Assembly: GCF_003390915.1 (NCBI RefSeq)
Contig: NZ_QMEM01000001.1
Span: 682,001 to 746,000, forward strand
Length of the DNA: 64,000 bases
Reading direction: 5' to 3'
DNA from: Lewinella sp. IMCC34183
Lineage (GTDB): Bacteria > Bacteroidota > Bacteroidia > Chitinophagales > Saprospiraceae
The notes beneath the pieces were generated by a model, which saw only the letters and a program-made list of their open reading frames with translations, did no database searches and had not been told where the DNA came from. Each line of letters begins with the position of its first letter. The first letter of the stretch is position 1. Shown here one piece after another: positions 25,750 through 41,390 of the stretch. The position numbers and the translations under genes are program-made.

Positions 25750-26349
25750 CTAGCGTTGCAGGCTCAGGAAAACGATAAGGTAGATCCACAGCACGTCTAC
25801 GAAGTGCCAGTAGATGATGGTCAGTTCGAGCCGCAGCTGGCGTGCGGGTGTTCGCCGCAATTTCAGCACGAAAGCAAGAACGAGCGCGACGGCCAGCGCC
25901 GCCAGTCCCCCCACTACGTGCAGGGCATGCAGCCAACTGATCGCGTACACGAAATCACCCGCCGGGTTGATCTTGAGCGGAACGCCCTGTGCGGCCAGTT
26001 CCTCCCACCCCAGGTACTGCATCACGAGGAAGGCAATACCCAAGACGAAGCTCAGCGAGAGCAAAATCTTGTACGCATTTGCGGCCTCCCGTTTGAAGGC
26101 CCCGTATGCAGCGTGCAAAGTTAGGCTACTGACGAGGATGACCAAAGTGTTGACGTAGAAAATGGTTGGGATAGAAAATTCCAACCAGTTTCCCGAGGCG
26201 CGACGTACGATGTACGCGCTGGTCAGGGCAATGAACATCATGACCAGGCTCCCCAGTCCGATGTACATGACCATTTTGAGCGGATGCAGCTTGCTGCGGC
26301 GGGTTACCGCCGCAAGTTGCTGATCCGCGGTTGTTTGTATTGCACTCAT
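25750..26349 (-). CDS. Cytochrome c oxidase subunit III, short form
   Basis: 199 residues, five helices, ending with IIYWHFVDVLWIYLIVFLSL, the conserved last helix of heme-copper oxidase subunit III, and WLHALHVVGGLAAL. This is the short CyoC-like form. Its ATG shares one base with the ctaB stop (TAATG), which implies translational coupling. Having a short and a long subunit III side by side is usual in Bacteroidota oxidase clusters. Confidence 0.88.
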   Translation of the reverse strand: MSAIQTTADQQLAAVTRRSKLHPLKMVMYIGLGSLVMMFIALTSAYIVRRASGNWLEFSIPTIFYVNTLVILVSSLTLHAAYGAFKREAANAYKILLSLSFVLGIAFLVMQYLGWEELAAQGVPLKINPAGDFVYAISWLHALHVVGGLAALAVALVLAFVLKLRRTPARQLRLELTIIYWHFVDVLWIYLIVFLSLQR

Positions 26350-27257
26350 TACATAAAGAATTTACCCGCCCAGTAAGCCGTGAAAACCAGCGGCAGATAG
26401 GCGAAGGAAAAGAACATCATCCGGAGTGCCGTCGACCGCTCCGGGCGACGATAAAATTGTACGGCGTAGTAACAGAAAGCGGCCCCGCAAACGACCACGA
26501 ACCCGGCAGCCCCGGCGGAGGTGATTCCCAGGAGATAGGGAATGACACCCAGCGGAATAAGTGCCGCAGCTGCCAGTACGGCGTCCCGCCCGAGTTGCCG
26601 GGCGTCCACCTCGCCATCACGTTCGGGAACCAGCCGGAATCCCGCCTTGCGGTAATCCCTGGCGCCGAGAAAGCCGATAGCGTAAAAGTGGGGTAACTGC
26701 CAGAAGAACTGCAGGGTGAAAAGGGTAATCCCCAGGGTCGTGATGGATCCCTCCGCCGCAGCACAGCCGATCAGGGCTGGGAGGGCGCCGGGTACGGCAC
26801 CTACCGCTACGGCGACGGGGCCTACCCGCTTCAGCGGAGTGTACACGAAGGCGTAGCTCATCAAAGACACCATACCGAGCACGGCCGTCCAGGGGTTGAA
26901 GAGTGCCAGCAGGGCAATGCCGCCCAGGCTGGAGAAACCGGCAAGCAGGAGTGCTTCGCTGGTGGACATCCGCCCCTCGGCCAGGGGCCGACGGCGGGTC
27001 CGCTCCATCTGCCGGTCGTAATCCTTCTCGAGGATTTCGTTCAGGATATTCGCGGCGGCCGTGGTCAGAAAACCGCCGGCGGTCAGGACCGCGACGGCCC
27101 ACCAGCTCACTCCGGTACCCGAGAGGGCGACCAGGTAGGCCAGCACCGAAGACAGGACAACGGTAATGGAAAGCCGGAACTTCACCAGAGCCGCCAGATC
27201 GGCGAGCCGTGAAGTCTGTTCGGCAACCTCTACCCGACTTGTGGATGATGCTTTCAT
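26349..27257 (-). CDS. ctaB: Protoheme IX farnesyltransferase CtaB
   Basis: 302 residues, UbiA-type membrane prenyltransferase with about eight helices. The two Asp-rich sites are present: NILNEILEKDYDRQMERT (N-x3-D-x3-D type) and the YTPLKR segment before the second site, ARDYRKAG. It converts heme B to heme O, the first step to the heme A needed by CoxA. The gene starts after the coxA terminator and begins a second transcript with both subunit III genes and subunit IV. Confidence 0.95.
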   Translation of the reverse strand: MKASSTSRVEVAEQTSRLADLAALVKFRLSITVVLSSVLAYLVALSGTGVSWWAVAVLTAGGFLTTAAANILNEILEKDYDRQMERTRRRPLAEGRMSTSEALLLAGFSSLGGIALLALFNPWTAVLGMVSLMSYAFVYTPLKRVGPVAVAVGAVPGALPALIGCAAAEGSITTLGITLFTLQFFWQLPHFYAIGFLGARDYRKAGFRLVPERDGEVDARQLGRDAVLAAAALIPLGVIPYLLGITSAGAAGFVVVCGAAFCYYAVQFYRRPERSTALRMMFFSFAYLPLVFTAYWAGKFFM

Positions 27258-27351: not shown

Positions 27352-29205
27352 TTAGTGGTCGGTCGTTTCGCCTTCCATGGTCGGCTGCATCTGGGAGATG
27401 TTGTCGATACCGTCTTTGCTGTAGTCATAGGCCCAGCGCTGTACGGTAGGAAGCTTGCCCGGCCAGTTGCCGTGGCCCACCTCGATGGGGGTCGTCCACT
27501 CCAGGGTGTTGGCCTGGTAGGGGTTCTTGGTGGTCAGCTTCTTGCCGCGCCAGATGCTCCAGAAGAAGTTGATGACGAACAGCAGCTGGAAACCGAAGGT
27601 CAGGATGGCAGCGATCGTGATGAACTTGTTCATACCATCGAAGTGACCGAAGGTCTGGAAGCTGTCGAAGCTGTAGTAGCGGCGCGGTACGCCGGCCATA
27701 CCGAGGTAGTGCATCGGCCAGAAAACGCAGTACGCACCGATGGTGGTACCCCAGAAGTGGATCTTACCGAGGGTACCGTTCATAAAGCGACCGTACATCT
27801 TGGGGAACCAGTGGTAGATGCCCGCGAACATGCCGAAGAAGGCAGCAACCCCCATCACGATGTGGAAGTGAGCAACTACGAAGTAGGTGTCGTGCAGCTG
27901 GATGTCGAGCGCGGAGTTACCGAGCCAGATACCCGTAAGACCTCCAGAGATGAACATCGATACGAAGCCGATGGCGAACAGGCTGGCGGGATTGTAGCGG
28001 ATGTTACCCCCGTACAGCGTGGCGATCCAGTTAAACACCTTAACCGCGGAGGGAACGGCAATGATCAGGGTGAAGATCACGAAGAAGTTGGCAATGAAGG
28101 GGTTGATGCCCGACATGAACATGTGGTGAGCCCATACGATGAATGCCAGGAAGGCGATCGCAAGGATCGAAAACACCATCGCCTGGTAGCCGAAGATCGG
28201 CTTGCGGCTGTTGACGGCCAATACTTCGGATACGATACCGAAGGCCGGCAGGATGATGATGTACACCTCGGGGTGACCCAGGAACCAGAACAAGTGCTGG
28301 TATAGGATCGGGCTACCGCCTACGTGATCGAGCGCCGCACCACCGATGTAGATATCGGAGAGATAGAAGCTGGTACCGATACCACGATCGAGCATCAGCA
28401 GGAAGAAGGCGGAGGTAAGTACGGGGAAGGAGAGCAGACCGAGAATGGCCGTCACGAAGAAGGCCCAGATCGGCAGCGGCAGGCGCCACATGCTCATTCC
28501 CTTGGTGCGCAGGTTAAGTACCGTGGTGATGTAGTTGATACCCCCCAGCAGCAGGGAGACAACGAGCAGTACCAGCGAGATAGTCCACAGGGTCATACCA
28601 GCACCCGAACCGTCCATGGCCTGGGGAAGGGCCGACAGAGGCGGATACGCTACCCAACCGCCGGCGAAAGGGCCGGTGGACAGGAACAGCGAGGCGAACA
28701 TGATGGTACCGGAAACGAAGAAGAACCAGTAGCTGAGCATGTTCAACAGCGGCGAGGCCATGTCGCGGGCACCAATCATCAGGGGGATCAGCAGGTTGCT
28801 GAATGTACCGGACAGACCGGCGGTAAGCACGAAGAAAACCAGGATGGTGCCGTGCATGGTCACCAGGGCGTAGTAGAAGTCCTGAGCCAGGGTTCCTACT
28901 CCTTCGGCGTTAACGGTAATCCACTTGCCGAGCAGCGGCTGAAGCCACGCAAGGCTCTCCTCGGGGAAGCCGAGCTGCATCCGGAAGATGAGCGACATTA
29001 CGGCACCGATGATGGCCCAGAACATTCCCGTGATCAGGAACTGCTTGGCGATCATCTTGTGATCCATGCTGAAAATGTAGTGAGAGATGAAGTTCGACTG
29101 ATACTTATCCCCGTGGTGGTGCTCGTGGAAGTGATCGTCGTAACCAAATTCCTCAATCAGTGCTTCGTCGCGTTTCAGCGGGGCCGTAATAACTGCTGTA
29201 GCCAT
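27352..29205 (-). CDS. coxA: Cytochrome c oxidase subunit I (A1-type heme-copper oxidase)
   Basis: 617 residues, twelve helices. Contains FWFLGHPEVYIIILPAFG with the CuB His, the proton-channel Glu and the Tyr that crosslinks to it (A1 type); VWAHHMF with two more CuB His; and HDTYFVVAHFHIV with the heme a3 and heme a ligands. The usual HFHYV reads HFHIV here. A His-rich cytoplasmic start (HFHEHHHGDKY, residues ~25-35) precedes helix 1. The enzyme reduces O2 to water and pumps protons. The start codon lies 37 bases after the coxB stop. Confidence 0.97.
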   Translation of the reverse strand: MATAVITAPLKRDEALIEEFGYDDHFHEHHHGDKYQSNFISHYIFSMDHKMIAKQFLITGMFWAIIGAVMSLIFRMQLGFPEESLAWLQPLLGKWITVNAEGVGTLAQDFYYALVTMHGTILVFFVLTAGLSGTFSNLLIPLMIGARDMASPLLNMLSYWFFFVSGTIMFASLFLSTGPFAGGWVAYPPLSALPQAMDGSGAGMTLWTISLVLLVVSLLLGGINYITTVLNLRTKGMSMWRLPLPIWAFFVTAILGLLSFPVLTSAFFLLMLDRGIGTSFYLSDIYIGGAALDHVGGSPILYQHLFWFLGHPEVYIIILPAFGIVSEVLAVNSRKPIFGYQAMVFSILAIAFLAFIVWAHHMFMSGINPFIANFFVIFTLIIAVPSAVKVFNWIATLYGGNIRYNPASLFAIGFVSMFISGGLTGIWLGNSALDIQLHDTYFVVAHFHIVMGVAAFFGMFAGIYHWFPKMYGRFMNGTLGKIHFWGTTIGAYCVFWPMHYLGMAGVPRRYYSFDSFQTFGHFDGMNKFITIAAILTFGFQLLFVINFFWSIWRGKKLTTKNPYQANTLEWTTPIEVGHGNWPGKLPTVQRWAYDYSKDGIDNISQMQPTMEGETTDH

Positions 29206-29241: not shown

Positions 29242-30762
29242 TTACTTGGAGGAGAGAGCCGCATTTTCGGGTATGGCGATCTCTCCTTCTGTAATATACA
29301 TTTCGATGCCAGAGTTGCGGGATTCCCCGGGGTTTCCACCCATTGTGGTCATCGGCCGACTGGAACCGTAGCCGCGGCTGCGCAGCCGGTCAGCTTCAAT
29401 GCCGTTTTCAATGAGATAATCCCGTACAGCCTGTGCACGCTGGTCACTGAGGCTGATGTTAGCAGCTTCGTCGGCGGCGTTTCCGGTTTCGTAGCCCATG
29501 AGGACGACACCGGCATTCTCGTTGCGCTCCAGGTAGGAAAGCAGATCGTCTAGCTGGTACTCGGAATCTCCGCCAAGGGTAGCCGTACCTTCCTCGAAGG
29601 TCACGTAATCCAGGGTAAGGTAGTTGTCCTCGTCGCTCGAAGTGCCCATCGCGGTGGATACCGCCTGATTGAAGTCGGTGCGGCGCTGCTTGACGTCGGC
29701 CATGAACATGGGATCGTCCTTGGTGCCCTTTACGCTGGTTTCATAGTACGACTCCTGCTGTGCGTACCAGGTGTCGAAATCATCCTGCTCGAGGATGTTG
29801 ACGGTACGCGCCATGGAATAGTGGCCGATGCCACAGAGCTCGGCGCAGGCCAGTTCGAAATTGCGGGTCTCCCAGAGTTGCTTGCCTTCCGTTTCCGGGT
29901 CGGGCAGCTGGTACTCGGGGTATTCAGAAAGACCCTTCCGCCACTCCTTGGTAGTGGTGCGGGGGGTGAAGACGAAATAGGTGGGCAGGCCGGGAACAGC
30001 GTCCATCTTGACGCGGAACTGGGGCAGGTAGAAATCGTGAAGGACGTCCTGGGCGGTGATCCGCACGCGGACCTTCTGATCGACGGGAAGCGTAACGTCG
30101 TTGATCTGAATATCGTCCCAGCTCTTCGGGTCGGTGTAGTCTACGCCCAGGGGGTTGGCACCCGTGATCAGGCGAAAGTCCTTGCGGCCCAGCAGACCGT
30201 CGGGTCCGGGGTAGCGCATGGCCCAGGCAAACTGGTAGCCGGTGGCCTCGATCTCCATGTAGTTGTCGTCGTCGCCTACGTCGCTCATGATGGTGTTCCA
30301 GGCATCCAGTCCACCGACCACCAGAAAGGTCATTACGATGGCGGGGATACCCGTCCAGACCAGCTCCACCGTATTGTTGTGGCTCAGGTACTGCGCCTTG
30401 TGGCCTTTGCGGCTGCGGAACTTGTAGGCGTAGTAGAACAGGGCAATGTGGGTGAGGATGTAGGCGGAGTAGGTGACGCCGAGCGTCCACTTCATCATGC
30501 TGTCGATTTCGGCACCGTGCTCCGAAGCGGAGGCATTGGGACCGAATCCGAGGATGTAGTTTTTGTAGTAGAGCGCGGAGGCACTGGTGATTACCAGCAG
30601 GGCGATCATGAAGAACATGAGCCCCCGACCGGTAGCGGCCGTGGCTTTTGCTTCCACTTCCTCGCTGCCGCGCAGGCGCTGGGCCAGGTCACGGACCCGG
30701 GCCACCTGCACGATGATGAGCAGGAGGAGCGCAATGCAAAGTAAGACGATCAACGTAGTCAT
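29242..30762 (-). CDS. coxB: Cytochrome c oxidase subunit II with C-terminal OmpA-like domain
   Basis: 506 residues. Hydrophobic segments at about 2-21, 48-67, 93-112 and 133-152, then the cupredoxin domain with the CuA site: H242 in VLHDFYLPQFR and C306/C310/H314/M317 in CAELCGIGHYSM. Instead of ending near 335 (or continuing into a cytochrome c domain), the chain goes on to an OmpA/MotB-like domain at ~378-492: YVTFEEGTATL, VVLMGYETGNAADEAANISL, SDQRAQAVRDYLIENGI, RGYGSSRPM. The peptidoglycan-contact Arg (DQRAQ) is kept, but the GHTD motif reads GYET. The fusion is in one open frame with no stop or base-composition break. It would hold the oxidase against the cell wall, or be a structural relic; this is inference. 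Confidence 0.9.
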   Translation of the reverse strand: MTTLIVLLCIALLLLIIVQVARVRDLAQRLRGSEEVEAKATAATGRGLMFFMIALLVITSASALYYKNYILGFGPNASASEHGAEIDSMMKWTLGVTYSAYILTHIALFYYAYKFRSRKGHKAQYLSHNNTVELVWTGIPAIVMTFLVVGGLDAWNTIMSDVGDDDNYMEIEATGYQFAWAMRYPGPDGLLGRKDFRLITGANPLGVDYTDPKSWDDIQINDVTLPVDQKVRVRITAQDVLHDFYLPQFRVKMDAVPGLPTYFVFTPRTTTKEWRKGLSEYPEYQLPDPETEGKQLWETRNFELACAELCGIGHYSMARTVNILEQDDFDTWYAQQESYYETSVKGTKDDPMFMADVKQRRTDFNQAVSTAMGTSSDEDNYLTLDYVTFEEGTATLGGDSEYQLDDLLSYLERNENAGVVLMGYETGNAADEAANISLSDQRAQAVRDYLIENGIEADRLRSRGYGSSRPMTTMGGNPGESRNSGIEMYITEGEIAIPENAALSSK

Positions 30763-30885: not shown

Positions 30886-32529
30886 CTAGGTGTGGTGGTG
30901 GATACTTTCCTCCAGGTAGGGGTCGTGCTTGGGTACCAGGCGGTAACGCGCCAACTGAGAGAGGACGAAGTAGAGGAAGCCACCCAGGAACCCTAGGAAG
31001 ATACCGATTTCCAGCAAGCCGGGAAGGGTGAAGCCCGATTTATAGCCCAGCGTATGCAGTGCTTCGCTGTGCCCACCGGCTACTTCAAGGTGACCCTGCA
31101 TTTCGGTTTCTTCGACGTTCTCCTCCTGGATAAACTTGTTGGGTTCGAAGACATCAGCATCCGTGCGGTCGGCCGCGGTGGCCAGGGCCTGCGTTCCGGT
31201 GCTCCGGGTCTCGGGGGTACCGCCGCGGAATTCGTTCGCTACCGGAATACCGCTGTCCGTCTCCGAGGCATCGAAGTGGACGTTGTCGTTGTCAAACGAG
31301 TCATCGGTACCTGCGGTCTGCTCCAGGTTGTCCCCCTCGCTGACAACCTCCCCCGCCGCAAGGGCGGCGGTCTCGTCGCCGTCGTGGCCTTCGGCGTGCT
31401 GATCGTGTCCCATCACCGCCGTATCCTCACCATGGGCCTCACCCACGCCGTGGCCGCCCTCGTGGGCTTCCATTTCGATCAGCGTCAGGCGGGCACCGGG
31501 CTTGATCATGTTGAAAAAGTCGAGCCAGTGGCCGAAGAAGACCAGGGCCGAGGCAAAGAAAAGGGTACCCATCTTGCGCTTGGTGTCGTTCCGCATCAGG
31601 ATGAGGAAGGGCAGTACGAAGTTGATGCCTAGGTTGGCCCAGAACAGGACGGGATAATTGTCCATCCGCTCCCGGAAGTAGATCGTCTCCTCCCCTACGT
31701 TGGCGTACCAGATGAGCATGAACTGGCTGAACCAGAGGTACGTCCAGAAGATCGAGATCGCGAAGAGGTACTTGCCCAGGTCGTGGAAGTGCTCGGCGTT
31801 GACCCCCGGGTAGTAGCCACGGCTCTTCAGGTAGATAAGCAGCATGATCGTCAGGGCAGTCATGGCTACAAACAGCGAAGCGGAAGCATACCAGGCGAAC
31901 ATCGTGGAGTACCAGTGGCTGTCGATCGACATGATCCACTGCCAGATCAGGGCGGCACTGGTGAAGCCGAAGATCGGAAGGAAGATCGCGGCGTATACCT
32001 TGTACTTGCGGAAGTAGCTGAAGGTACTGTCCTTATCGTCGGCGTCTTCGGCCAGGCTCAGGTTGCGGATCTTGCCGAGCAGGAAGTACCACAGTCCTAC
32101 AAATCCGATGGTTCCGAAGGTGTACCAGTACTTATTGAGGAAAGAAGATTTGTGGGTCAGGATCGCGTCCTCCATCACAGCGGCCTCGTCGTTCCAGTGG
32201 TACAGGTGGTGACTGTGCAGCCAGAGACCTACGATGATCACGCCCATCAGGAAGAGTCCCGGCAGCAGAAAGGAAGAGAAGCTTTCCCACACGCGCTTGA
32301 ACTGGACGAACCAGCCGGCATAGGCGGTCGTAAAGGCGGCCAGCGCAAAACCGGCGATAGCCCCGATGCCCAGGAAGAACACGGTGTTGTGGAGGAAATT
32401 GGTCCAGAACCGCATGTGGTGGCCTTCGCCGCCGTCCACGAAGTAGCTGATGATCAAGCACACCAGGCCCACGCCCATGAGGGCTAGGTTAGTGGTCTTG
32501 GCGCGGGAAGAGAATACAAAGTTCTCCAT
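30886..32529 (-). CDS. actF: Alternative complex III subunit ActF
   Basis: 547 residues; integral membrane, quinol-side subunit of alternative complex III. Ten helices are expected, including IFWTYLWFSQFMLIWYAN, a typical ActF block, and the C-terminus VPKHDPYLEESIHHHT. Residues ~355-490 form a long His/Asp/Glu-rich low-complexity insertion (e.g. HEGGHGVGEAHGEDT and HDQHAEGHDGDE) between the penultimate and last helices. The segment stays in frame and returns to a conserved helix (LPGLLEIGIFLGFLGGF). Last gene of the act set before coxB. Confidence 0.93.
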   Translation of the reverse strand: MENFVFSSRAKTTNLALMGVGLVCLIISYFVDGGEGHHMRFWTNFLHNTVFFLGIGAIAGFALAAFTTAYAGWFVQFKRVWESFSSFLLPGLFLMGVIIVGLWLHSHHLYHWNDEAAVMEDAILTHKSSFLNKYWYTFGTIGFVGLWYFLLGKIRNLSLAEDADDKDSTFSYFRKYKVYAAIFLPIFGFTSAALIWQWIMSIDSHWYSTMFAWYASASLFVAMTALTIMLLIYLKSRGYYPGVNAEHFHDLGKYLFAISIFWTYLWFSQFMLIWYANVGEETIYFRERMDNYPVLFWANLGINFVLPFLILMRNDTKRKMGTLFFASALVFFGHWLDFFNMIKPGARLTLIEMEAHEGGHGVGEAHGEDTAVMGHDQHAEGHDGDETAALAAGEVVSEGDNLEQTAGTDDSFDNDNVHFDASETDSGIPVANEFRGGTPETRSTGTQALATAADRTDADVFEPNKFIQEENVEETEMQGHLEVAGGHSEALHTLGYKSGFTLPGLLEIGIFLGFLGGFLYFVLSQLARYRLVPKHDPYLEESIHHHT

Positions 32530-32579: not shown

Positions 32580-33476
32580 TTATTTCTTGCGGAGCGTGGG
32601 GCTGGTCGTACCCCCCCCGGCGTCGGTCATCAGTTCGCCATCTTCGGCGGCCGGAGCTTGCTGGGCCAGTGGATCGATCTCACCGGAGGGCGTACCTACC
32701 GCGGGATTGAAGGTATTGACCGTCGGGCTGTACTCGGTGCCCGTCTCCTTGGCCTGTAGCGTACGGATGAAGTGGATCACCTGCCAGCGCTCCTCGTAGT
32801 TCATCTTATCGGCGTAGGCCCCCATGACGTTGTAGCCATACATGATGGCGTGGTAGTACCGGCCGTTGGAGGCTTCGAGGAATTCCGGGCGCAGGAAGCT
32901 CGCGGGTGCTGCGGGATATTTCGCCTGGGGGTTCTTGTCGGTATCGTAGATGTAGCCCAGTCCGTCACCGGCCTCGCCGTGGCAGATGGCGCAGAAGATG
33001 CCGTACAGGTTGGCGCCGGTGGCGAGTCCCGCTTCCGTGATGGGGAAGGGGTTGGTGGAGTTGTCGGCCAGGGCGGCTTCCCGTCCTTCCGGCGTGTCGT
33101 CGTAGTAGTACGGGACGTGGCCGTTGGTGGGGATGGCAATGGCGTTCATATGGTCTCCGTCGACGATGCTGCCACGCATGCTTTCGGCCTCGTCGAGGTT
33201 GGTGGGCGGCTGCATGCCGGGCGTGTAGCTGCCGGCGTATCCGCGGGGTACGGTGCCCTCTACGGTGTACTTGGGGTAGGCCAACTCTCCGAGTTTGACG
33301 GTAGACCGGTCATTCCAGGTATTGTAGTAGTAGTAGTTGTACGTGTTCGCCTCCATAGCCACCGAGTGTGCCATATCGGGCATGTACTCGCTGCCGGTGA
33401 ACTCGCCCTCGGCGTCGCTGCAGGCGGTAAGGACCACCGCAAGGCCGAGCGTCAGGATCAGGTTATGCAATTTCAT
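32580..33476 (-). CDS. actE: Alternative complex III subunit ActE, monoheme cytochrome c lipoprotein
   Basis: 298 residues. Lipoprotein signal with LTACS (Cys19) and one heme-binding CAICH motif, followed by the class I cytochrome fold; the distal Met is probably in MYGYNVMGAYADKM. ActE receives electrons from ActA and passes them to the oxidase or a soluble carrier. The last ~50 residues are a Pro/Ala/Gly-rich tail. The gene lies between actF and actD with short gaps. Confidence 0.93.
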   Translation of the reverse strand: MKLHNLILTLGLAVVLTACSDAEGEFTGSEYMPDMAHSVAMEANTYNYYYYNTWNDRSTVKLGELAYPKYTVEGTVPRGYAGSYTPGMQPPTNLDEAESMRGSIVDGDHMNAIAIPTNGHVPYYYDDTPEGREAALADNSTNPFPITEAGLATGANLYGIFCAICHGEAGDGLGYIYDTDKNPQAKYPAAPASFLRPEFLEASNGRYYHAIMYGYNVMGAYADKMNYEERWQVIHFIRTLQAKETGTEYSPTVNTFNPAVGTPSGEIDPLAQQAPAAEDGELMTDAGGGTTSPTLRKK

Positions 33477-33503: not shown

Positions 33504-34106
33504 TTAGGCCGCTACCGTTTTTTGGTGCACGGTCTCCACGCCGGTACGGCTGAAGTATTCGCGCAGCTGGTCCACTTCCGAACGGCTGCGTTCGGTGACG
33601 TCGAAGGCAATACAGAACTTGTCGTCGGTAATGCGGTCGTGCAGGCGACGCGGCTCGGCGCCGGGGCCCAGGCCGTTGATGATGTAGAACACCGTCACCA
33701 TACCTACCGCCGAAAAGAGGACGGTGAGCTCGAAGGTGATCGGAATGAAGGCCGGTACCGACCAGTACGGCTTACCGCCGAAGATGATCGGCCAGTCGCG
33801 GGTGAAGACCCACGTCATGAAACCGAAGCCAAAGAGACAGCCGATCGTACCGAATACGAAGCCGGCGATGTGCAGGCGGCTTTCCTCAAGTCCCAGCAGG
33901 GGATCCAGGCCGTGGACCGGGAAGGGCGTGTATACGTCGTCGATGTCCAGGTGGTCAGCGTTGGCCGCCTTTACGGCATCCAGGAGTTTCACCTCGTCGT
34001 CGTAAAGTCCGAAGAGGATATCGCGCTGGCCGGCGGATACGAAGTCCTGGTTGGGCTTCACTGCACCCGCGTCCCCGCCGTCTCGTTCTATTCTGATTGT
34101 TGCCAT
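33504..34106 (-). CDS. actD: Alternative complex III subunit ActD (DUF3341)
   Basis: 200 residues, two helices (~78-98 and 120-143) in the usual DUF3341 arrangement: FGLYDDEVKLLDAVKAA in the soluble start, TPFPVHGLDPLLGL before helix 1 and IPITFELTVLFSAVGMV in helix 2. ActD is a membrane accessory subunit with no cofactor. Start and spacing (23 bases after actC stop) fit the operon. Confidence 0.93.
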   Translation of the reverse strand: MATIRIERDGGDAGAVKPNQDFVSAGQRDILFGLYDDEVKLLDAVKAANADHLDIDDVYTPFPVHGLDPLLGLEESRLHIAGFVFGTIGCLFGFGFMTWVFTRDWPIIFGGKPYWSVPAFIPITFELTVLFSAVGMVTVFYIINGLGPGAEPRRLHDRITDDKFCIAFDVTERSRSEVDQLREYFSRTGVETVHQKTVAA

Positions 34107-34128: not shown

Positions 34129-35655
34129 TTAGTCTAGGGGTTTGTCGTCTTCTCCGTCGATATCGACCGTTCCGCCGGCCGGGATGTCGTTGACCTCCGG
34201 ACGGGTGGTCTTGCCGTGGGCCGGGGCGGTGCCTCCCTTGACGGGATGGGGCGTGTGGGGGGTACCGGCATGGGCGTGTGCCAGCGCATTGGGACCGATG
34301 TACTGGTCGCCGGCCGTCTTCAGGATACTCTTGATTTCCGCGATGGCGACCACCGGAGCGACCCGGGTGAAGATGAGGAAGAGCGTGAAGAAGAGACCGA
34401 TCGTACCGATGAAGATGCAGATCTCTACCCAGGTAGGCACGTAGTAGCTCCAGCTGGAGGGCAGGTAGTCCCGCGCCAGGGTGGTGGCGATGATGACGAA
34501 GCGCTCGAACCACATACCGATGTTGATGAAGATCGACATGAAGAAGGTCCAGAAGAGGCTGGTGCGCAGGCGGCGGCTCCAGAAAATCTGGGGCGATACC
34601 ACGTTACACAGCATCATGCCGATGTAGCTCCAGTAGTAGGGACCGAGGACGCGGTTGAGGAAGGCGAACTGCTCGTAAATGTAGCCGGAGTACCATGCGA
34701 TAAAGAGCTCGGTGAGGTACGCCACGCCGACGATGGAGCCGGTCAGCAGGATCACCTTGTTCATCGACTCGATGTGTTCAATGGTGATGTAGTCCTCCAG
34801 GTGCAGCACCTTACGGGCGATCAGCATCAGGGTAAGTACCATCGCGAAGCCCGAGAAGATAGCTCCCGCCACGAAGTAGGGAGGGAAGATCGTGGTATGC
34901 CAGCCCGGAATGACCGAGGTAGCAAAGTCAAAGGATACGATGGTGTGTACCGAAAGTACCAGGGGCGTAGCCAGACCGGCCAGAATGAGGGAGAGGCTCT
35001 CCCACCGCTGCCAGTGCTTGGCCGAACCGTTCCAGCCGAAGCTAACGACGCTGTAGATCTTCTTGCGCAGGCCCACGGCGCGGTCGCGGACCGTAGCGAG
35101 GTCAGGAACCAGACCGGCGTACCAGAACAGCAGCGATACCGTGAAGTAGGTCGAGATCGCGAATACGTCCCAGAGCAGCGGGCTGTTGAAGTTCACCCAC
35201 AATGGACCCCGGGTATTGGGGTACGGGAAGATGAAGATCGCCAGCCACAGGCGGCCCATGTGAATGAGCGGGAACTGACCGGCGCACATGACGGCGAAGA
35301 TCGTCATGGCTTCCGCGGCCCGGTTTACGCCCGTCCGCCACTTCTGGCGGAAAAGGAGGAGGATCGCGGAGATCAGCGTTCCGGCGTGACCGATACCGAC
35401 CCACCACACGAAGTTGGTAATGTCCCAACCCCAGTTGATGGTTCGGTTCAGGTTCCAGGAGCCGATACCGATCCAGATCGTCCAGGCCACGCTGAAGGCG
35501 AACAGCCCCAGACATATGACCGAGATGATGAAGGTGACCACCCACGACAGCGAAGGCGCCGTCTCCGTTGGCCGGCAGATGTCCTCCGTGATCTGATGGT
35601 AGGTCTTGTGACCCGTGATCAGCGGCTGGCGAACCGGTGCTATATGTCCACTCAT
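34129..35655 (-). CDS. actC: Alternative complex III subunit ActC (NrfD-like)
   Basis: 508 residues from the ATG at 35655 (a second in-frame ATG lies at 35667). NrfD/PsrC-like membrane protein with ten helices; the quinone-site and channel residues fall in blocks such as WWVGIGHAGTLISAILLLFRQKWRT and MCAGQFPLIHMGRLW. ActC pairs with the Fe-S protein ActB and is a quinol-binding, probably proton-translocating subunit. The last ~50 residues are a His/Pro-rich soluble tail (HAHAGTPHTPHPVKGG, then DIDGEDDKPLD). Confidence 0.94.
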   Translation of the reverse strand: MSGHIAPVRQPLITGHKTYHQITEDICRPTETAPSLSWVVTFIISVICLGLFAFSVAWTIWIGIGSWNLNRTINWGWDITNFVWWVGIGHAGTLISAILLLFRQKWRTGVNRAAEAMTIFAVMCAGQFPLIHMGRLWLAIFIFPYPNTRGPLWVNFNSPLLWDVFAISTYFTVSLLFWYAGLVPDLATVRDRAVGLRKKIYSVVSFGWNGSAKHWQRWESLSLILAGLATPLVLSVHTIVSFDFATSVIPGWHTTIFPPYFVAGAIFSGFAMVLTLMLIARKVLHLEDYITIEHIESMNKVILLTGSIVGVAYLTELFIAWYSGYIYEQFAFLNRVLGPYYWSYIGMMLCNVVSPQIFWSRRLRTSLFWTFFMSIFINIGMWFERFVIIATTLARDYLPSSWSYYVPTWVEICIFIGTIGLFFTLFLIFTRVAPVVAIAEIKSILKTAGDQYIGPNALAHAHAGTPHTPHPVKGGTAPAHGKTTRPEVNDIPAGGTVDIDGEDDKPLD

Positions 35656-35804
35656 AGGGATGTGCAATTTTCGATTTACGGGCTGTTGGTCCGGAAGCCC
35701 CGGCAGCTAAAGCAAATCGGTTCAGTTGTTGTTGCGGGTTCTTAATTTAAATCGAAGAAGCTGACCGTCAGTCCGTTGACCGGGGCCGGCGTGCTTCGTT
35801 CGTA

Positions 35805-38800
35805 TCAGGCTTCGAGCTCGGGGACCGGGTTATGCACGCGGGCGGCGTAAAAGACCGAGGACTGGGTGTTCGTTTCCTCGAGGACGAGGTAGTTCAGCGG
35901 GTTGTCCAGCTTCTGCCGTACGTCTCCGTTGGTGTGGTTGCGGTCACCGAAGGTGATCGCGCCGGTGGGACAGGCGGTCTGGCAGGCCGTGCGTACATCG
36001 GAGTCGCGCAGCGCGCGCTTCTCGATCTTGGCGGTCAGCTTACCGGCCTGCAGGCGCTGGGCACAGAAGCTACACTTCTCGATGACGCCGCGGCTGCGGA
36101 CGGTCACGTCGGGGTTCAGCACCATACGGGTGAGGTTGTCGGCACCGAAGGGCAGTTCCTCGTCGGCGACCTCGGGCTCGTTGCTGCTGAAGAGGTCGGC
36201 CGTAGTGAAGTCGAGCCAGTTGAAGCGCCGCACCTTGTAGGGACAGTTATTGGCGCAGTAGCGGGTACCGATACACCGGTTGTAGATCATCTGGTTGGCC
36301 CCCTCGTCGCTGTGCTGGGTAGCGTTTACCGGACATACGTTCTCGCAGGGTGCGTTGTCGCAGTGCTGGCACATCATAGGCTGGTAAACGGCGCGGGGGT
36401 TTTCCACGTCGCCGTAAAAGTAGCGGTCGATGCGCAGCCACTTCATTTCGTGGTGGCGCCAGACTTCATACTTACCGACGATGGGGACGTTATTCTCCGC
36501 CACACAGGCTACTTCACAGGCGGCACAGCCGATACAAGCGTTGAGGTCCACGTGCATCGCCCACCAGTGACCCTGGCTGTAGATGTCCTTGGCGTACTCC
36601 TCGTAGGGGTACAGCGTCTGCTCGTTCAGGTGCTGAGCTTCGGCGCGGCGCTCGGCGATCTCCTCCCGGAGGGCGGGCAGGTCTTCCATCGTTCCCTGGA
36701 AGATGATCGAGCGATCCGTCAGGCCGCCCTGCATACCCTCGCCGATCTCCATTACGGTAGCTTCGTCGACGTGGAAGGGCTCCAGGTACTCGCGCTGTTC
36801 CTCGGTGAGCTCCCCGGCGATGGTTTCCCGGTCGCTGGTCAGCTTGTTGTAGTAGACCGTACCGTTCTCGTTCTGGGTCGTAAGGCCCATCGTATGGTGG
36901 TACTGCACGCTGGCGAACTCGTGCTCGGTGGCGACGCGGTCGGACACCGTGGCGCTGGTGGCGTAGTACTGGATGTAGCCATCGCCGTCTACGGTCAGCC
37001 AGGGGTATACGTTGACACCGACTCCCTGTCCGATTTCACGACCGGGGTCACCCACCATGCTGCGGCCGTAACCGATGGCGAGTCCTAGGGTTCCGGGCAG
37101 TTGACCGAACTGACGCACGGCCGTAATGGTCGCGGGGTTATCGGCAGCGTCGCCTACCGTAAGCTCGACGATGTCGGCCTTTCCTTTGTATTCCTCTTCG
37201 TTCAGCCCCTTGAAAGCGGTGTAGCGGTTACCCTCCACCCAAGTTACGGGGATGGTCAGGTAGTTGCCCCAGACCGTACGGGTAACGGGGTCGGGCAGCT
37301 CCTGCAGCCAGGGGTTACCGGCGTAGGTGCCGTTGCCGATGTTGACCGTTTCAAAAAAGGTGATCTCGTTTTCGCCGCCGGCTTCGCTGCCGATGCGCCG
37401 TGCGGCATCCGATGCGTCAAAGTCATCTACCGAACGCGCCGTAATGGCCGTACCGGTGGCGGGGGGCTGCTGCGGGGAGCCGTCCTCTTCCATCGTCTCC
37501 GCAGGCGCGGCCGCGGGAGCGGTGGTTCCGCCGTAGCCGAGGCCGAGGTCCTGGATACCACCCGTAGCGTTGCTGTTAAAAACACCGTCGTGGAGGGCAC
37601 TGTCCCAGAAGGCCTGGAAGGAGGCGAACCGCGTCTGGTTGGGGAAAGCGGTTTCCCGCCAGTTATTCATTACGTACTGCATGTACGGCTGGTCGGCGGC
37701 GGCGTCGTATCGCTGGTTCTCACCGGACCAGATCAGCAGGCTTTCGGCCTCCTGCCGCGTACCGAACCGGTTGACGCTGGCAAAAATCGGCACGATAGCG
37801 GGCTGGATCAGGGAGTAGACCCCCTGGATAGCCTCGGCGTCGCCCCAGCTCTCCAGGTAGTGGTTCGTGGGGGTGACGTATTCGCAGTAGGGAGTGGTGT
37901 CGTTGGCCACGCTGCCCATGGAGATCGCGAGGATGCGGCGGAAGCCGGCCCGGATCGGGTCGCCGTCCACTACGCTGGGATCCAGTCCGGGGTCATTCTC
38001 GTCGTTGACGTCGGCCTGTTCGCTGCGGTCGCCGACCTCGTCGGCGTCGAGCGCGGTGCCGTTGCCTACCTGGTTCCAGTTCGGGTCGTTGCGGCGCATC
38101 ACTTCGGTGAAGCGGGCGGCGAAGGGGTTATCGTAGGCGGGGTTGGCACCGTCGAAGACAATGACGGCGTCGACCTGGCCGGCCTCCAGCTCGTCCACGA
38201 AGCGGGCGAGGTCCTGGTCGCTACCCTGCCGCTGGTAACTCCAGCGGTTGGTTTCGATGGTGCTGCCGTAGCTGCCGATCGCGCGGTTGATCGCTATACA
38301 GAGCTGCTGCTCGTAGAGGTTGTTGCTACCGGAGACTACGAGACCGGCACCGTTGGACTGCTGAAGCTCCCGGGCCACGGCGCGAATCTTGGCCGTAACG
38401 GCCGCGTCGAGGTTCGTGGAACCGCCGCCGCTGCCGGTTACCGCCTGGTAGAGGGCGAGCAGCGCCTGACCCTGCTGGCTGGGCTTGACCATGATCCGGT
38501 TGTCAGCGTTGGAGCCGGTGAGGCTCATGTGGCTCTCGACCTGGATGTGGCGCGACATGCGGCCCGTATTGGCGCGGCGGCCGGTGGCGTACTGCCGGGC
38601 GTACTCAACGGGCGAGATCCAGGTACCGAGGAAGTCACAGTTGAAACCGACGATAACGTTGGCGTTATCGAAGCGGTAGTGGGGCACTGCACGGACGCCG
38701 AAGGCGGAATCGTGGGCATCGAGGAGCGCCGAAGAGGACACCGGATCGTACTGGACGAGCACGGTGTTGCCGGGCATCCGGTTCTTGAAGTCGCGGATGG

Positions 38801-39392
38801 AGGCCTTCAGCGAAGGGCTTAGGATGGTATGGGAAACGATACGGATTTCGCGGGCGTCGCGGAGCCGGTCGCCGATCTCGGCGTCGAATTCTTCCCAGCT
38901 GGTGTTGTCGGCGTACTTGCGGGCGCGCTCGACCTGTCCGCCGCGGAGGCGGTAGGGTCCGTCAAAGCGGCTTGTGTCGTACATGGAGAGGACGCTGGCC
39001 TGCGCGCGGGCGCTGGTACCCCCCTCGGTGATGGGGCTCATGGAGTTGCCCTCGATCTTGATGGGACGTCCCTCGCGGGTCTTCACCAGCACGGGAACGT
39101 AGTCGCCGCCCTGTACGAAGGTGGAAGCGAAATAGGTGGCTACGCCGGGCACGATAGTATCGGGCTTGGAGACGTAGGGGATGGCTTTACGGACCGGAAT
39201 ATCACAGCTCGCGATGGTAGCGGCCGTCATGCCGAAGCCGAGGTACTTGAGGAAATCGCGCCGGCTGGCTTCCAGACGGGGGTTCTCAAGCTGCTGCTGC
39301 TGGGCGACTTCGCCGTCGGTGGCCGCCCGGTATTCGGGGGTATCCGCTAACTGGTCGGTTCCTATCCAGACGTTGTTGACTTGCTTCTTCAT
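35805..39392 (-). CDS. actB: Alternative complex III subunit ActB (molybdopterin-enzyme-like plus Fe-S domain)
   Basis: 1,195 residues. A Tat-type signal is set back from the start (ASRRDFLKYLGFGM, ~43-56) and runs to ATIASC, a possible lipid-attachment Cys. The N-terminal two thirds are related to molybdopterin oxidoreductases but in this complex carry no Mo. The C-terminal third has the ferredoxin-like cysteines: CIGCAACEVAC, CQHCDNAPCENVCPV, CIGTRYCANNCPYKVRR and CSFCAQRLQ with CQTACPTGAI, for three 4Fe-4S and one 3Fe-4S clusters by family knowledge. A low-complexity Ala/Pro stretch near residue 630 looks like an inserted linker. Confidence 0.95.
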   Translation of the reverse strand: MKKQVNNVWIGTDQLADTPEYRAATDGEVAQQQQLENPRLEASRRDFLKYLGFGMTAATIASCDIPVRKAIPYVSKPDTIVPGVATYFASTFVQGGDYVPVLVKTREGRPIKIEGNSMSPITEGGTSARAQASVLSMYDTSRFDGPYRLRGGQVERARKYADNTSWEEFDAEIGDRLRDAREIRIVSHTILSPSLKASIRDFKNRMPGNTVLVQYDPVSSSALLDAHDSAFGVRAVPHYRFDNANVIVGFNCDFLGTWISPVEYARQYATGRRANTGRMSRHIQVESHMSLTGSNADNRIMVKPSQQGQALLALYQAVTGSGGGSTNLDAAVTAKIRAVARELQQSNGAGLVVSGSNNLYEQQLCIAINRAIGSYGSTIETNRWSYQRQGSDQDLARFVDELEAGQVDAVIVFDGANPAYDNPFAARFTEVMRRNDPNWNQVGNGTALDADEVGDRSEQADVNDENDPGLDPSVVDGDPIRAGFRRILAISMGSVANDTTPYCEYVTPTNHYLESWGDAEAIQGVYSLIQPAIVPIFASVNRFGTRQEAESLLIWSGENQRYDAAADQPYMQYVMNNWRETAFPNQTRFASFQAFWDSALHDGVFNSNATGGIQDLGLGYGGTTAPAAAPAETMEEDGSPQQPPATGTAITARSVDDFDASDAARRIGSEAGGENEITFFETVNIGNGTYAGNPWLQELPDPVTRTVWGNYLTIPVTWVEGNRYTAFKGLNEEEYKGKADIVELTVGDAADNPATITAVRQFGQLPGTLGLAIGYGRSMVGDPGREIGQGVGVNVYPWLTVDGDGYIQYYATSATVSDRVATEHEFASVQYHHTMGLTTQNENGTVYYNKLTSDRETIAGELTEEQREYLEPFHVDEATVMEIGEGMQGGLTDRSIIFQGTMEDLPALREEIAERRAEAQHLNEQTLYPYEEYAKDIYSQGHWWAMHVDLNACIGCAACEVACVAENNVPIVGKYEVWRHHEMKWLRIDRYFYGDVENPRAVYQPMMCQHCDNAPCENVCPVNATQHSDEGANQMIYNRCIGTRYCANNCPYKVRRFNWLDFTTADLFSSNEPEVADEELPFGADNLTRMVLNPDVTVRSRGVIEKCSFCAQRLQAGKLTAKIEKRALRDSDVRTACQTACPTGAITFGDRNHTNGDVRQKLDNPLNYLVLEETNTQSSVFYAARVHNPVPELEA

Positions 39393-39468: not shown

Positions 39469-41007
39469 TTAGTAGTGGCAGCGCTGACAGTTCAGGCCTC
39501 CGACGTCCTCTACGGTGACTCCGTCGCGGGTGCCCTCGTCGAGCTCCTCGTGGTAGAGTTTGTATGAATCGTAGTACGGGTTGTCGTTGAACTGTACCTG
39601 CGTTTCGCGGTGGCAGTTGATACACCAGCCCATGCTTAGGGGGCTGTACTGGTACACGACCTCCATCTCCTCTACGGGCCCGTGGCAGTTCTGGCACTTG
39701 AGTTTGCCGACCGTCACGTGCTGAGCATGGTTGAAGTAAGCATGGTCGGGCAGGTTATGGATGCGGTTCCACTCGATGGGGCCGGGAACGCGATCGTCGT
39801 CGGTGTATTCGTTGGTCAGGGCGGCGTAGATACCGTCCCACTGCTCCTCGACCACGTTTTCTACCTCGTCGATGTCGCCGCCTTCGCTGATGTACTTGTC
39901 GGCAATCCACTTGCTGTAGATCCGGCGGGCCTGATCGTTGGTCATCTTGTCGTAGTTCGAGATGTAGGCACCCTCGGTGGGGTCCCAACCTACCGAAGCG
40001 AAGATCTTGGTGATCTCGGCGGTTCCGTACTGGCTACCGTAGTTGATGGCCCGGTGACAGTTCATACAGGTATTGACGGCCGGGATTACCGAGTGCTTGG
40101 AGCGCCGGGCACCGTCGTGGCAGTACTGGCATTCAATCTTGTGGATGCCGGCGTGCGTCTCGTGGCTGAACTTGATGGGCTGCTCGGGCTGGTAGTCCTG
40201 CTGCCGGCCCAAGTCGATGGCGTGGTTGACGGTGGTGTAACCGCCGAAGACGACGAAAGCGAAGATCACGAAGGCGATCATGCCGCGGCTGGTCAGGATC
40301 TGCGCCAGGGTACGCCGCGTGGCGGGGGCCGATCCTTCGGAGGTCTCGACCATGTACTGCAGGTTACTGGTCACGCGGGCCAGGATCAGCGACAGTAGAA
40401 TGAGCGCACCACCAAGAACGACGAACAGCCAAGTGTTGTCGGTTTCTTCTTCCGTACTGACGACGGCGGGGCCGTTCGTGACGCCGGCGGGGTTGTAACT
40501 ACCGGTGTACACGCCGTTGATGTAGGCCAGGAGGTTTTCTACGTCGCTGTCGCTCAGGTTCGTGTAGTTCGACATCTTCGTCGGCTTCCACTGCGACCAT
40601 ACGGCAAGGGCGCGGGCACTTTCGCCCGATCCGATCAGCTTCTGTGAGTTCTGCACCCAGCGGTAGAGGTGCTCGCGGGGCTCACCGGCCCAGCGTTCCT
40701 GTACGCCGCCGAGGGCGGGACCGGTCATGTTGTCCTTCATGCTGGCCGCGTGGCACGATCCACAGATGTTGGCTTTCCACAGGGCGGCACCGAGGGCGGG
40801 GTCGCCCTGGCCGGCGGCAACCGGCGCGGCAGCGGCGGCCGGAGTGGCGGCGGAATCGGCCGCGGCCGTAGCAACGGGATCGCCGTCAGCGACCGAAGCG
40901 GCGGTGGGGGCAGCAGATTGATCCGCCTGGGCCGACAATCCGCCCGCGAGTAGCAGGAAGACGCAGAGCAGCAGAAGCGACGAGAAGGTTTTGGTTAAAT
41001 ATGTCAT
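39469..41007 (-). CDS. actA: Alternative complex III subunit ActA, multiheme cytochrome c
   Basis: 512 residues from the ATG at 41007, which gives a signal peptide (SSLLLLCVFLLLAGGLSAQA); an in-frame extension to 41100 would cross the promoter. Six CxxCH motifs: one in an N-terminal class I domain (82-86), then, after a membrane helix pair (~194-210, 243-258), five in the C-terminal domain (293, 314, 438, 462, 507). The five C-terminal hemes match the pentaheme ActA of known complexes; the N-terminal heme domain is additional. An Ala/Asp-rich linker (30-66) follows the signal. First gene of the act operon. Confidence 0.94.
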   Translation of the reverse strand: MTYLTKTFSSLLLLCVFLLLAGGLSAQADQSAAPTAASVADGDPVATAAADSAATPAAAAAPVAAGQGDPALGAALWKANICGSCHAASMKDNMTGPALGGVQERWAGEPREHLYRWVQNSQKLIGSGESARALAVWSQWKPTKMSNYTNLSDSDVENLLAYINGVYTGSYNPAGVTNGPAVVSTEEETDNTWLFVVLGGALILLSLILARVTSNLQYMVETSEGSAPATRRTLAQILTSRGMIAFVIFAFVVFGGYTTVNHAIDLGRQQDYQPEQPIKFSHETHAGIHKIECQYCHDGARRSKHSVIPAVNTCMNCHRAINYGSQYGTAEITKIFASVGWDPTEGAYISNYDKMTNDQARRIYSKWIADKYISEGGDIDEVENVVEEQWDGIYAALTNEYTDDDRVPGPIEWNRIHNLPDHAYFNHAQHVTVGKLKCQNCHGPVEEMEVVYQYSPLSMGWCINCHRETQVQFNDNPYYDSYKLYHEELDEGTRDGVTVEDVGGLNCQRCHY

Positions 41008-41069
41008 TATACGGTTGACATTTAAGGGATTGCGGGTCGGCCCCATCAAGGGCCTTTCCGCTGGTCGGG

Positions 41070-41077
41070 CAAAGATA
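41070..41077 (-). promoter_or_regulatory. actA: -7 box of the act operon
   Basis: TATCTTTG on the minus strand is an exact TAnnTTTG match, 62 bases before the actA ATG. The 383-base gap 41008-41390 holds this promoter and, further upstream, a TTTCGGG/CCCGAAA inverted repeat (41164-41170, 41180-41186). No convincing gene was seen in the rest of the gap. Confidence 0.7.
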
Positions 41078-41390
41078 CTTTGGTGACAATTCTTGGACAA
41101 ACTTAGGTCAATGGGTATCCCTTATTTAGATTTCGTCTACGCAATTGACCGAAATTTGCTCCGTTTCGGGATGATTTTCCCCGAAATCCGGTTTCGGGCG
41201 GTACACAGCCTTCATGATATGGTACACCGACGGAGCATGGGCAACGCGTGACGGGCCGCCCGAAGCGCAGACTGCTGTTCGTGCCCCGACGACAGACCGT
41301 ACCCGAACACCTACCTGTCCAGCGTATCCCACGCACCGTAGTAGGTCATCCCCTGAAGAAACCCGGAAGTCTCTCCCCCACCCCTTCCCG

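Follow-up and report, generated by a model that had tools for sequence, protein, structure and literature searches.

The coxB locus and its operon

The window (the whole stretch of 64,000 nucleotides of DNA that was analysed) carries an operon in which the order was read as actA-actF, coxB, coxA, ctaB, coxC. The genes actB, actC, actF and coxC were named from their operon place, following the order in relatives. The following genes were located:

39469..41100, minus strand: actA, with six CxxCH motifs in all and a cytochrome c domain at the N-terminus (Pfam and motifs read)
35805..39392, minus strand: actB (operon place alone)
34129..35667, minus strand: actC (operon place alone)
33504..34106, minus strand: actD (Pfam PF11821, E 3.9e-54)
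32580..33476, minus strand: actE, cytochrome c (Pfam)
30886..32529, minus strand: actF, directly upstream of coxB (operon place; no Pfam match)
29242..30762, minus strand: coxB, cytochrome c oxidase subunit II with a C-terminal OmpA domain, 506 amino acids (frame and Pfam)
27352..29205, minus strand: coxA, subunit I (Pfam PF00115, E 1.1e-139)
26349..27257, minus strand: ctaB-like haem prenyltransferase of the UbiA family (Pfam PF01040)

Embedded in an act operon and adjoined by actF and coxA, the window gene is an aa3-type subunit II encoded together with alternative complex III (ACIII). The same neighbours recur among the 80 named loci, which score highest among 569 relatives searched with the fused query and give no measure of fusion frequency: actF was present in 79 of the 80 and coxA likewise in 79. 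Bacteroidota-type labels are attached to 79 of these loci; the Thermoanaerobaculia label of the exception, L109, is probably a binning error. Operon, CuA ligands and a six-haem ActA partner are shared with the subunit II of the aa3 oxidase that accompanies ACIII in Bacteroidota of the Flavobacterium johnsoniae type, from which the window protein differs by its C-terminal OmpA domain.

Domain architecture of the subunit II

The coxB frame starts with ATG at 30762 and runs on the minus strand down to 29242, comprising 506 codons with no internal stop. Along it we distinguished:

30319..30537, minus strand: COX2 transmembrane hairpin, residues 76-148 (Pfam PF02790, E 7.9e-9)
29986..30252, minus strand: periplasmic cupredoxin (CuA) domain, residues 171-259, given as the extent of the profile match (Pfam PF00116, E 1.5e-11)
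29812..29847, minus strand: CuA ligand stretch C306-A-E308-L-C310...H314...M317 (sequence)
29611..29742, minus strand: linker, residues 341-384, predicted to be helical at 353-373 (models, length in relatives)
29314..29601, minus strand: OmpA domain, residues 388-483 (Pfam PF00691 and predicted fold)

The CuA ligands H242, C306, E308, C310, H314 and M317 are all present and are invariant in 56 aligned fused rows; the first-pass annotation had named C306, C310, H314 and M317 correctly. With hairpin, cupredoxin domain and ligands in place, the window protein is a haem-copper oxidase subunit II. To the NCBIfam equivalog for CoxB (TIGR02866) it scores 133.4 bits, below the cut-off of 147.7, which marks it as related, and the narrow label is not claimed. 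Ahead of the usual hairpin two extra N-terminal helices are predicted (model residues 2-65, window 30565-30759), both of which contain hydrophobic stretches.

Residues 388-483 match the Pfam OmpA profile with E 6.4e-16 and 58.9 bits against a cut-off of 27.2, and a whole-genome OmpA search recovered the same place at 63 bits, again free of stops. The earlier reading of an OmpA/MotB-like tail in the same uninterrupted frame, for which comparison with PF00691 had been proposed, thus agrees with a significant match. Judged by this curated cut-off and by the predicted alpha/beta fold, the tail belongs to the OmpA family. A cytochrome c was not found at the C-terminus of coxB: no Cys follows residue 310 and no Pfam cytochrome c profile matches. 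By sequence, the protein does not count as a caa3 subunit II, which is recognized by a CxxCH cytochrome c domain at this end. The caa3 subunit II (PDB 2yev, of which chain 2yev_B was matched) is likewise extended by a domain at its C-terminus, in 2yev_B a fused cytochrome; the domain added in the window protein is instead of a wall-binding family and has no haem motif.

Structure prediction, which had also been proposed, gave an OmpA-like fold. The model of the entire protein (56 rows; mean pLDDT 76.7, pTM 0.60) contains the CuA core, the helix at 353-373 and, beyond residue 381, an OmpA-like fold, with pLDDT below 50 at 242-252, 306-316 and 473-482; in Foldseek it matched subunit II chains as well as OmpA domains. 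The OmpA domain modelled by itself (53 rows) reached pLDDT 83.2 and pTM 0.79. Its best matches are Capnocytophaga OmpA structures (5wtp_C, Z 14.0, rmsd 2.6, 115 residues aligned), it superimposes on 3td5_A, a complex with a diaminopimelate (DAP) peptide, with Z 11.8 and rmsd 2.6 over 108 residues, and the YfiB-YfiR and TolB-Pal complexes are also among its fold matches. The alignment to the MotB-like 3khn_B (model residues 17-154) takes in the linker helix. In the models and in relatives the linker measures about 40-50 residues and is partly helical, its length having been counted in the 73 proteins out of 123 that were caught by the pattern. Both predicted folds, subunit II and OmpA, are supported by these models.

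Distribution of the fusion among relatives

We took a census of the window's own family, Saprospiraceae, identified via named relatives. Among 298 family genomes 30 gave no match at 1e-40 and 268 did; a gene was called fused if the match extended to query residue 458 or beyond, i.e. at least 458. On this rule 199 of the 268 genomes with the gene have the architecture of the window protein, far more than chance would give, 61 are unfused and 8 undecided. A comparison with coxB of other Saprospiria had been suggested in the first-pass annotation. The subsets differ (fused/unfused/undecided): 146/3/0 in a subset of 149 genomes, 4/31/3 in one of 38, 25/14/1 in one of 40 and 18/13/4 in one of 35, while the remaining 6 genomes, seen in the order sample, are all fused. 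All figures are those after a check of contig ends at 40 census loci. In this check G354 was scored fused, its OmpA part being present in a third, broken frame, G268 and G173 were scored unfused as they reach a stop without OmpA, and G413, G361, G419 and G374 were scored undecided as their sequence runs off the contig end. The coxB of G354 (L256) is split over three broken frames, while its downstream OmpA part is intact; this may reflect real decay or assembly errors.

Wider samples, which overlap with each other and with the census, place the fusion largely within the family. Of the 149 genomes in the order sample 147 gave a match, and the fusion is present in all 19 Saprospiraceae genomes and, outside the family, in three genomes of one genus (G024, G037 and G073, the match in G073 being cut by a contig end), with no further case among the matches listed. 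The class sample comprised 345 genomes, of which 287 gave a match, and no listed match outside the family extends past residue 386. In a profile search of the phylum sample (345 genomes, 220 with a match) both domains were covered, among the matches listed, only in the 6 family genomes. Two fused proteins of named organisms, Portibacter marinus (L055) and Lewinella cohaerens DSM 23179 (L116), are identical to the family proteins L009 and L036, respectively. We regard the subunit II with an OmpA tail as a real and new variant of subunit II.

In unfused relatives CoxB stops shortly after the CuA core or has other tails without an OmpA profile match. The tails of unfused family members (L170-L178) are often long and charged, helix-like or repetitive, with LEA-like repeats in L172 and a His- and Glu-rich stretch in L173. 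Genomes of another family in the order sample (f14, e.g. L162) have an insertion inside the CuA domain, between query residues ~208-213 and 214. Long frames in the class relatives L150-L159, L166, L168 and L169 were considered as other C-terminal fusions and rejected, as the extra length lies ahead of the match and just 4-32 residues follow it; in these loci the frame stays open for ~87-196 putatively coding residues before the conserved CoxB start.

The peptidoglycan-binding motif is kept in relatives and changed in the window

We read the motif in the 106 distinct proteins encoded by 126 fused loci, a set that takes in part of the 199 fused genomes. The Asp of GHTD together with the NRR motif is kept in 105 of the 106, the sole exception being the window protein, and the Arg of LSxxR is kept in all 106 (103 by pattern, 3 from the motifs read). 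A few fused proteins have variants of GHTD that retain the Asp, namely GYTD, GHSD, SHTD, AHTD and VHTD. In Acinetobacter OmpA, Asp271 and Arg286 are reported to bind diaminopimelate (PMC12108004); their equivalence to the coxB residues is an alignment by motif. In the window two parts of the motif are changed:

29437..29496, minus strand: first motif part, residues 423-442, GYETG...LSDQR in place of GHTD...LSxxR in relatives (alignment with relatives)
29308..29316, minus strand: second motif part, residues 483-485, NSG in place of NRR in relatives (alignment with relatives)

The Asp of GHTD is lost (Gly427) and Arg442, the Arg of LSxxR, is retained. A residue, Glu425, is inserted beside the lost Asp; the changes are separate substitutions plus one inserted codon and not a frameshift. 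The first-pass annotation had rightly noted GYET for GHTD, and the replacement of NRR by NSG comes in addition. Predicted fold and LSxxR Arg are shared by the window domain with MotB, Pal and OmpA domains (PF00691), and GHTD and NRR by its relatives; unlike those domains, the coxB domain is attached to a respiratory enzyme, and the window copy is without Asp and NRR.

Of 14 other OmpA places in the window genome 12 were read (L210 and L216 were left out). The Asp is present in nine (L209, L211-L214, L217, L218, L220 and L221) and absent in three (L215, L219 and L222). The genome therefore uses canonical OmpA domains, yet coxB is not its sole one lacking the Asp. That the wall chemistry is unusual and made the coxB motif change is not supported, though these other places give a mixed control.

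Divergence rate of the window's domain

Branch lengths (changes per site) were determined for 13 sequences with the tree kept fixed and L002 as sister, and were used rather than dN/dS because synonymous sites are saturated. For the OmpA domain the terminal branch of the window protein is 0.777 compared to 0.144 for the sister, i.e. about five times as long, and for the linker 0.480 compared to 0.131, whereas in the CuA part the values of 0.135 and 0.100 differ by just 1.35 times. Identity of the OmpA domain to L003 is 43% for the window protein and 59% for the sister. The length of the OmpA branch alone proves nothing since L007 (0.779) and L096 (0.602) have long branches too with the motif intact, the CuA part of L007 being likewise long (0.367). 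What is odd about the window protein is the contrast of its OmpA branch with that of the sister and with its own CuA part. Relaxed constraint on the domain is the simplest reading and a changed function is possible. Some constraint may remain, as the dN of 0.47 lies below the saturated dS.

Gain and loss of the domain

In a tree computed quickly from 78 CuA parts fused and unfused proteins are mixed, with 7 state changes in 64 family rows, 2 of them forced by well-supported branches. The motif filter dropped the outgroup rows L135, L141 and L145 and the outgroup does not form one side of a branch; gain and loss of the OmpA domain cannot be told apart on this tree. In a tree of 42 OmpA domains a single clade of all 25 coxB tails has p-AU 0.39 and is neither shown nor rejected. 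The CoxB end of L160 (G003), from the genus outside the family that also has fused forms, resembles the last part of the OmpA domain of relatives with the middle missing, as though a deletion had removed the domain. A linker shared by fused and unfused family members was weighed as evidence of loss, but a similar stretch occurs in the outgroup protein L027.

Proposed function and alternative explanations

We consider it fairly probable that in most Saprospiraceae the ACIII-aa3 complex is anchored to the cell wall by the OmpA domain, and that this grip is weakened or lost in the window species. The linker of ~50 residues would lead from the end of the CuA domain to an OmpA/MotB-type domain placed in the periplasm, and by usual dimensions it would be long enough to reach the wall. 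There the domain would bind the diaminopimelate of peptidoglycan non-covalently, which would tether the complex. A haem would not be needed at the C-terminus of subunit II because ActA would bring its own sixth haem to CuA. For F. johnsoniae, six haems are reported in ActA, of which the sixth sits in a mobile N-terminal domain and is proposed as the electron donor to the aa3 oxidase (PMC8552683).

The first-pass annotation had suggested such a tether for the window protein itself, while suspecting altered or lost binding. At the level of the family the tether gains from the canonical motif in 105 of 106 proteins; in the window species it is doubtful, and the suspicion appears justified. There the frame of the domain is open and the domain is predicted to fold, but since the Asp and NRR are lost and the domain has diverged fast, the tether is probably weak or gone. 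With its own site changed, the window domain illustrates the proposed function least well of all. The domain is also dispensable at least in the lineages of the 61 family genomes that do without it.

Other explanations have to be weighed against the tether. That an assembly or frame error merely joined two genes is so improbable as to be negligible: nothing in the window speaks for it, and the broken frames of G354 show that such errors do occur in the set, but the same fusion is found in 199 genome assemblies including those of named isolates, and this recurrence rules out a joining of genes. It is unlikely that the window domain still binds peptidoglycan through a rebuilt site in which Arg442 is kept and the inserted Glu425 supplies the acid. 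The retained Arg and predicted fold, a frame with neither stop nor frameshift and the acidic residue gained beside the site would all be in line with it; what argues against it is the loss of the Asp and of both NRR arginines, for which the other 105 distinct fused proteins offer no parallel, together with the OmpA branch, five times as long as in the sister.

We give equally little credence to a role of the domain in assembly or in contacts with ActA, ActE or a partner in the outer membrane, its motif being kept for the fold or another ligand. OmpA-like domains can indeed dock on proteins, as in the YfiB-YfiR and TolB-Pal complexes, and the operon place is stable, but neither the DAP-binding set kept in 105 of 106 distinct proteins nor the 61 family genomes whose subunit II lacks the domain would be expected. 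The chance is small, finally, that the fusion has little function and is tolerated as a passenger, acquired on one or a few occasions and often dropped. Its absence from 61 family genomes, the genus outside the family with fused forms next to a seemingly cut-out copy (L160) and the degenerate window copy would be explained in this way, whereas a ligand motif kept in 105 of 106 proteins is hardly expected of a useless domain.

Respiratory complexes are usually pictured as diffusing freely in the membrane. It is conceivable, and to us only somewhat doubtful, that the catalytic subunit itself bolts the complex through which Saprospiraceae respire to the wall, which would fix the position of ACIII-aa3 and perhaps its spacing. 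By analogy, the wall would then position the complex as it does in flagellar motor stators, and lineages like the window species, which seemingly release the wall by a change of the binding site, would be a natural experiment. A wall-binding domain on an oxidase, kept across most of a family, would make the fixation of a respiratory complex directly testable, with natural controls at hand: 199 genomes with the domain, 61 without it and one spoilt binding site among the 106 proteins read.

A parallel in a photosystem

Our literature search, from which most subscription papers were beyond reach, found no subunit II-OmpA fusion and no wall link of the complex among the papers listed. The nearest parallel that could be confirmed is PsaB of Gloeobacter violaceus (PDB 7F4V), like the window CoxB a core protein of membrane electron transfer with an OmpA-like C-terminus; its residues 765-848 match the window OmpA domain with E 5e-7. 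PsaB belongs to a photosystem and not to an oxidase, and the fusion is presumably a separate one. In the structure paper residues 3-727 of PsaB are modelled, and the words 'peptidoglycan' and 'OmpA' are absent from its main text (PMC9000952). The OmpA-like stretch at 765-848 is left unmodelled in the published structure (PMC9000952).
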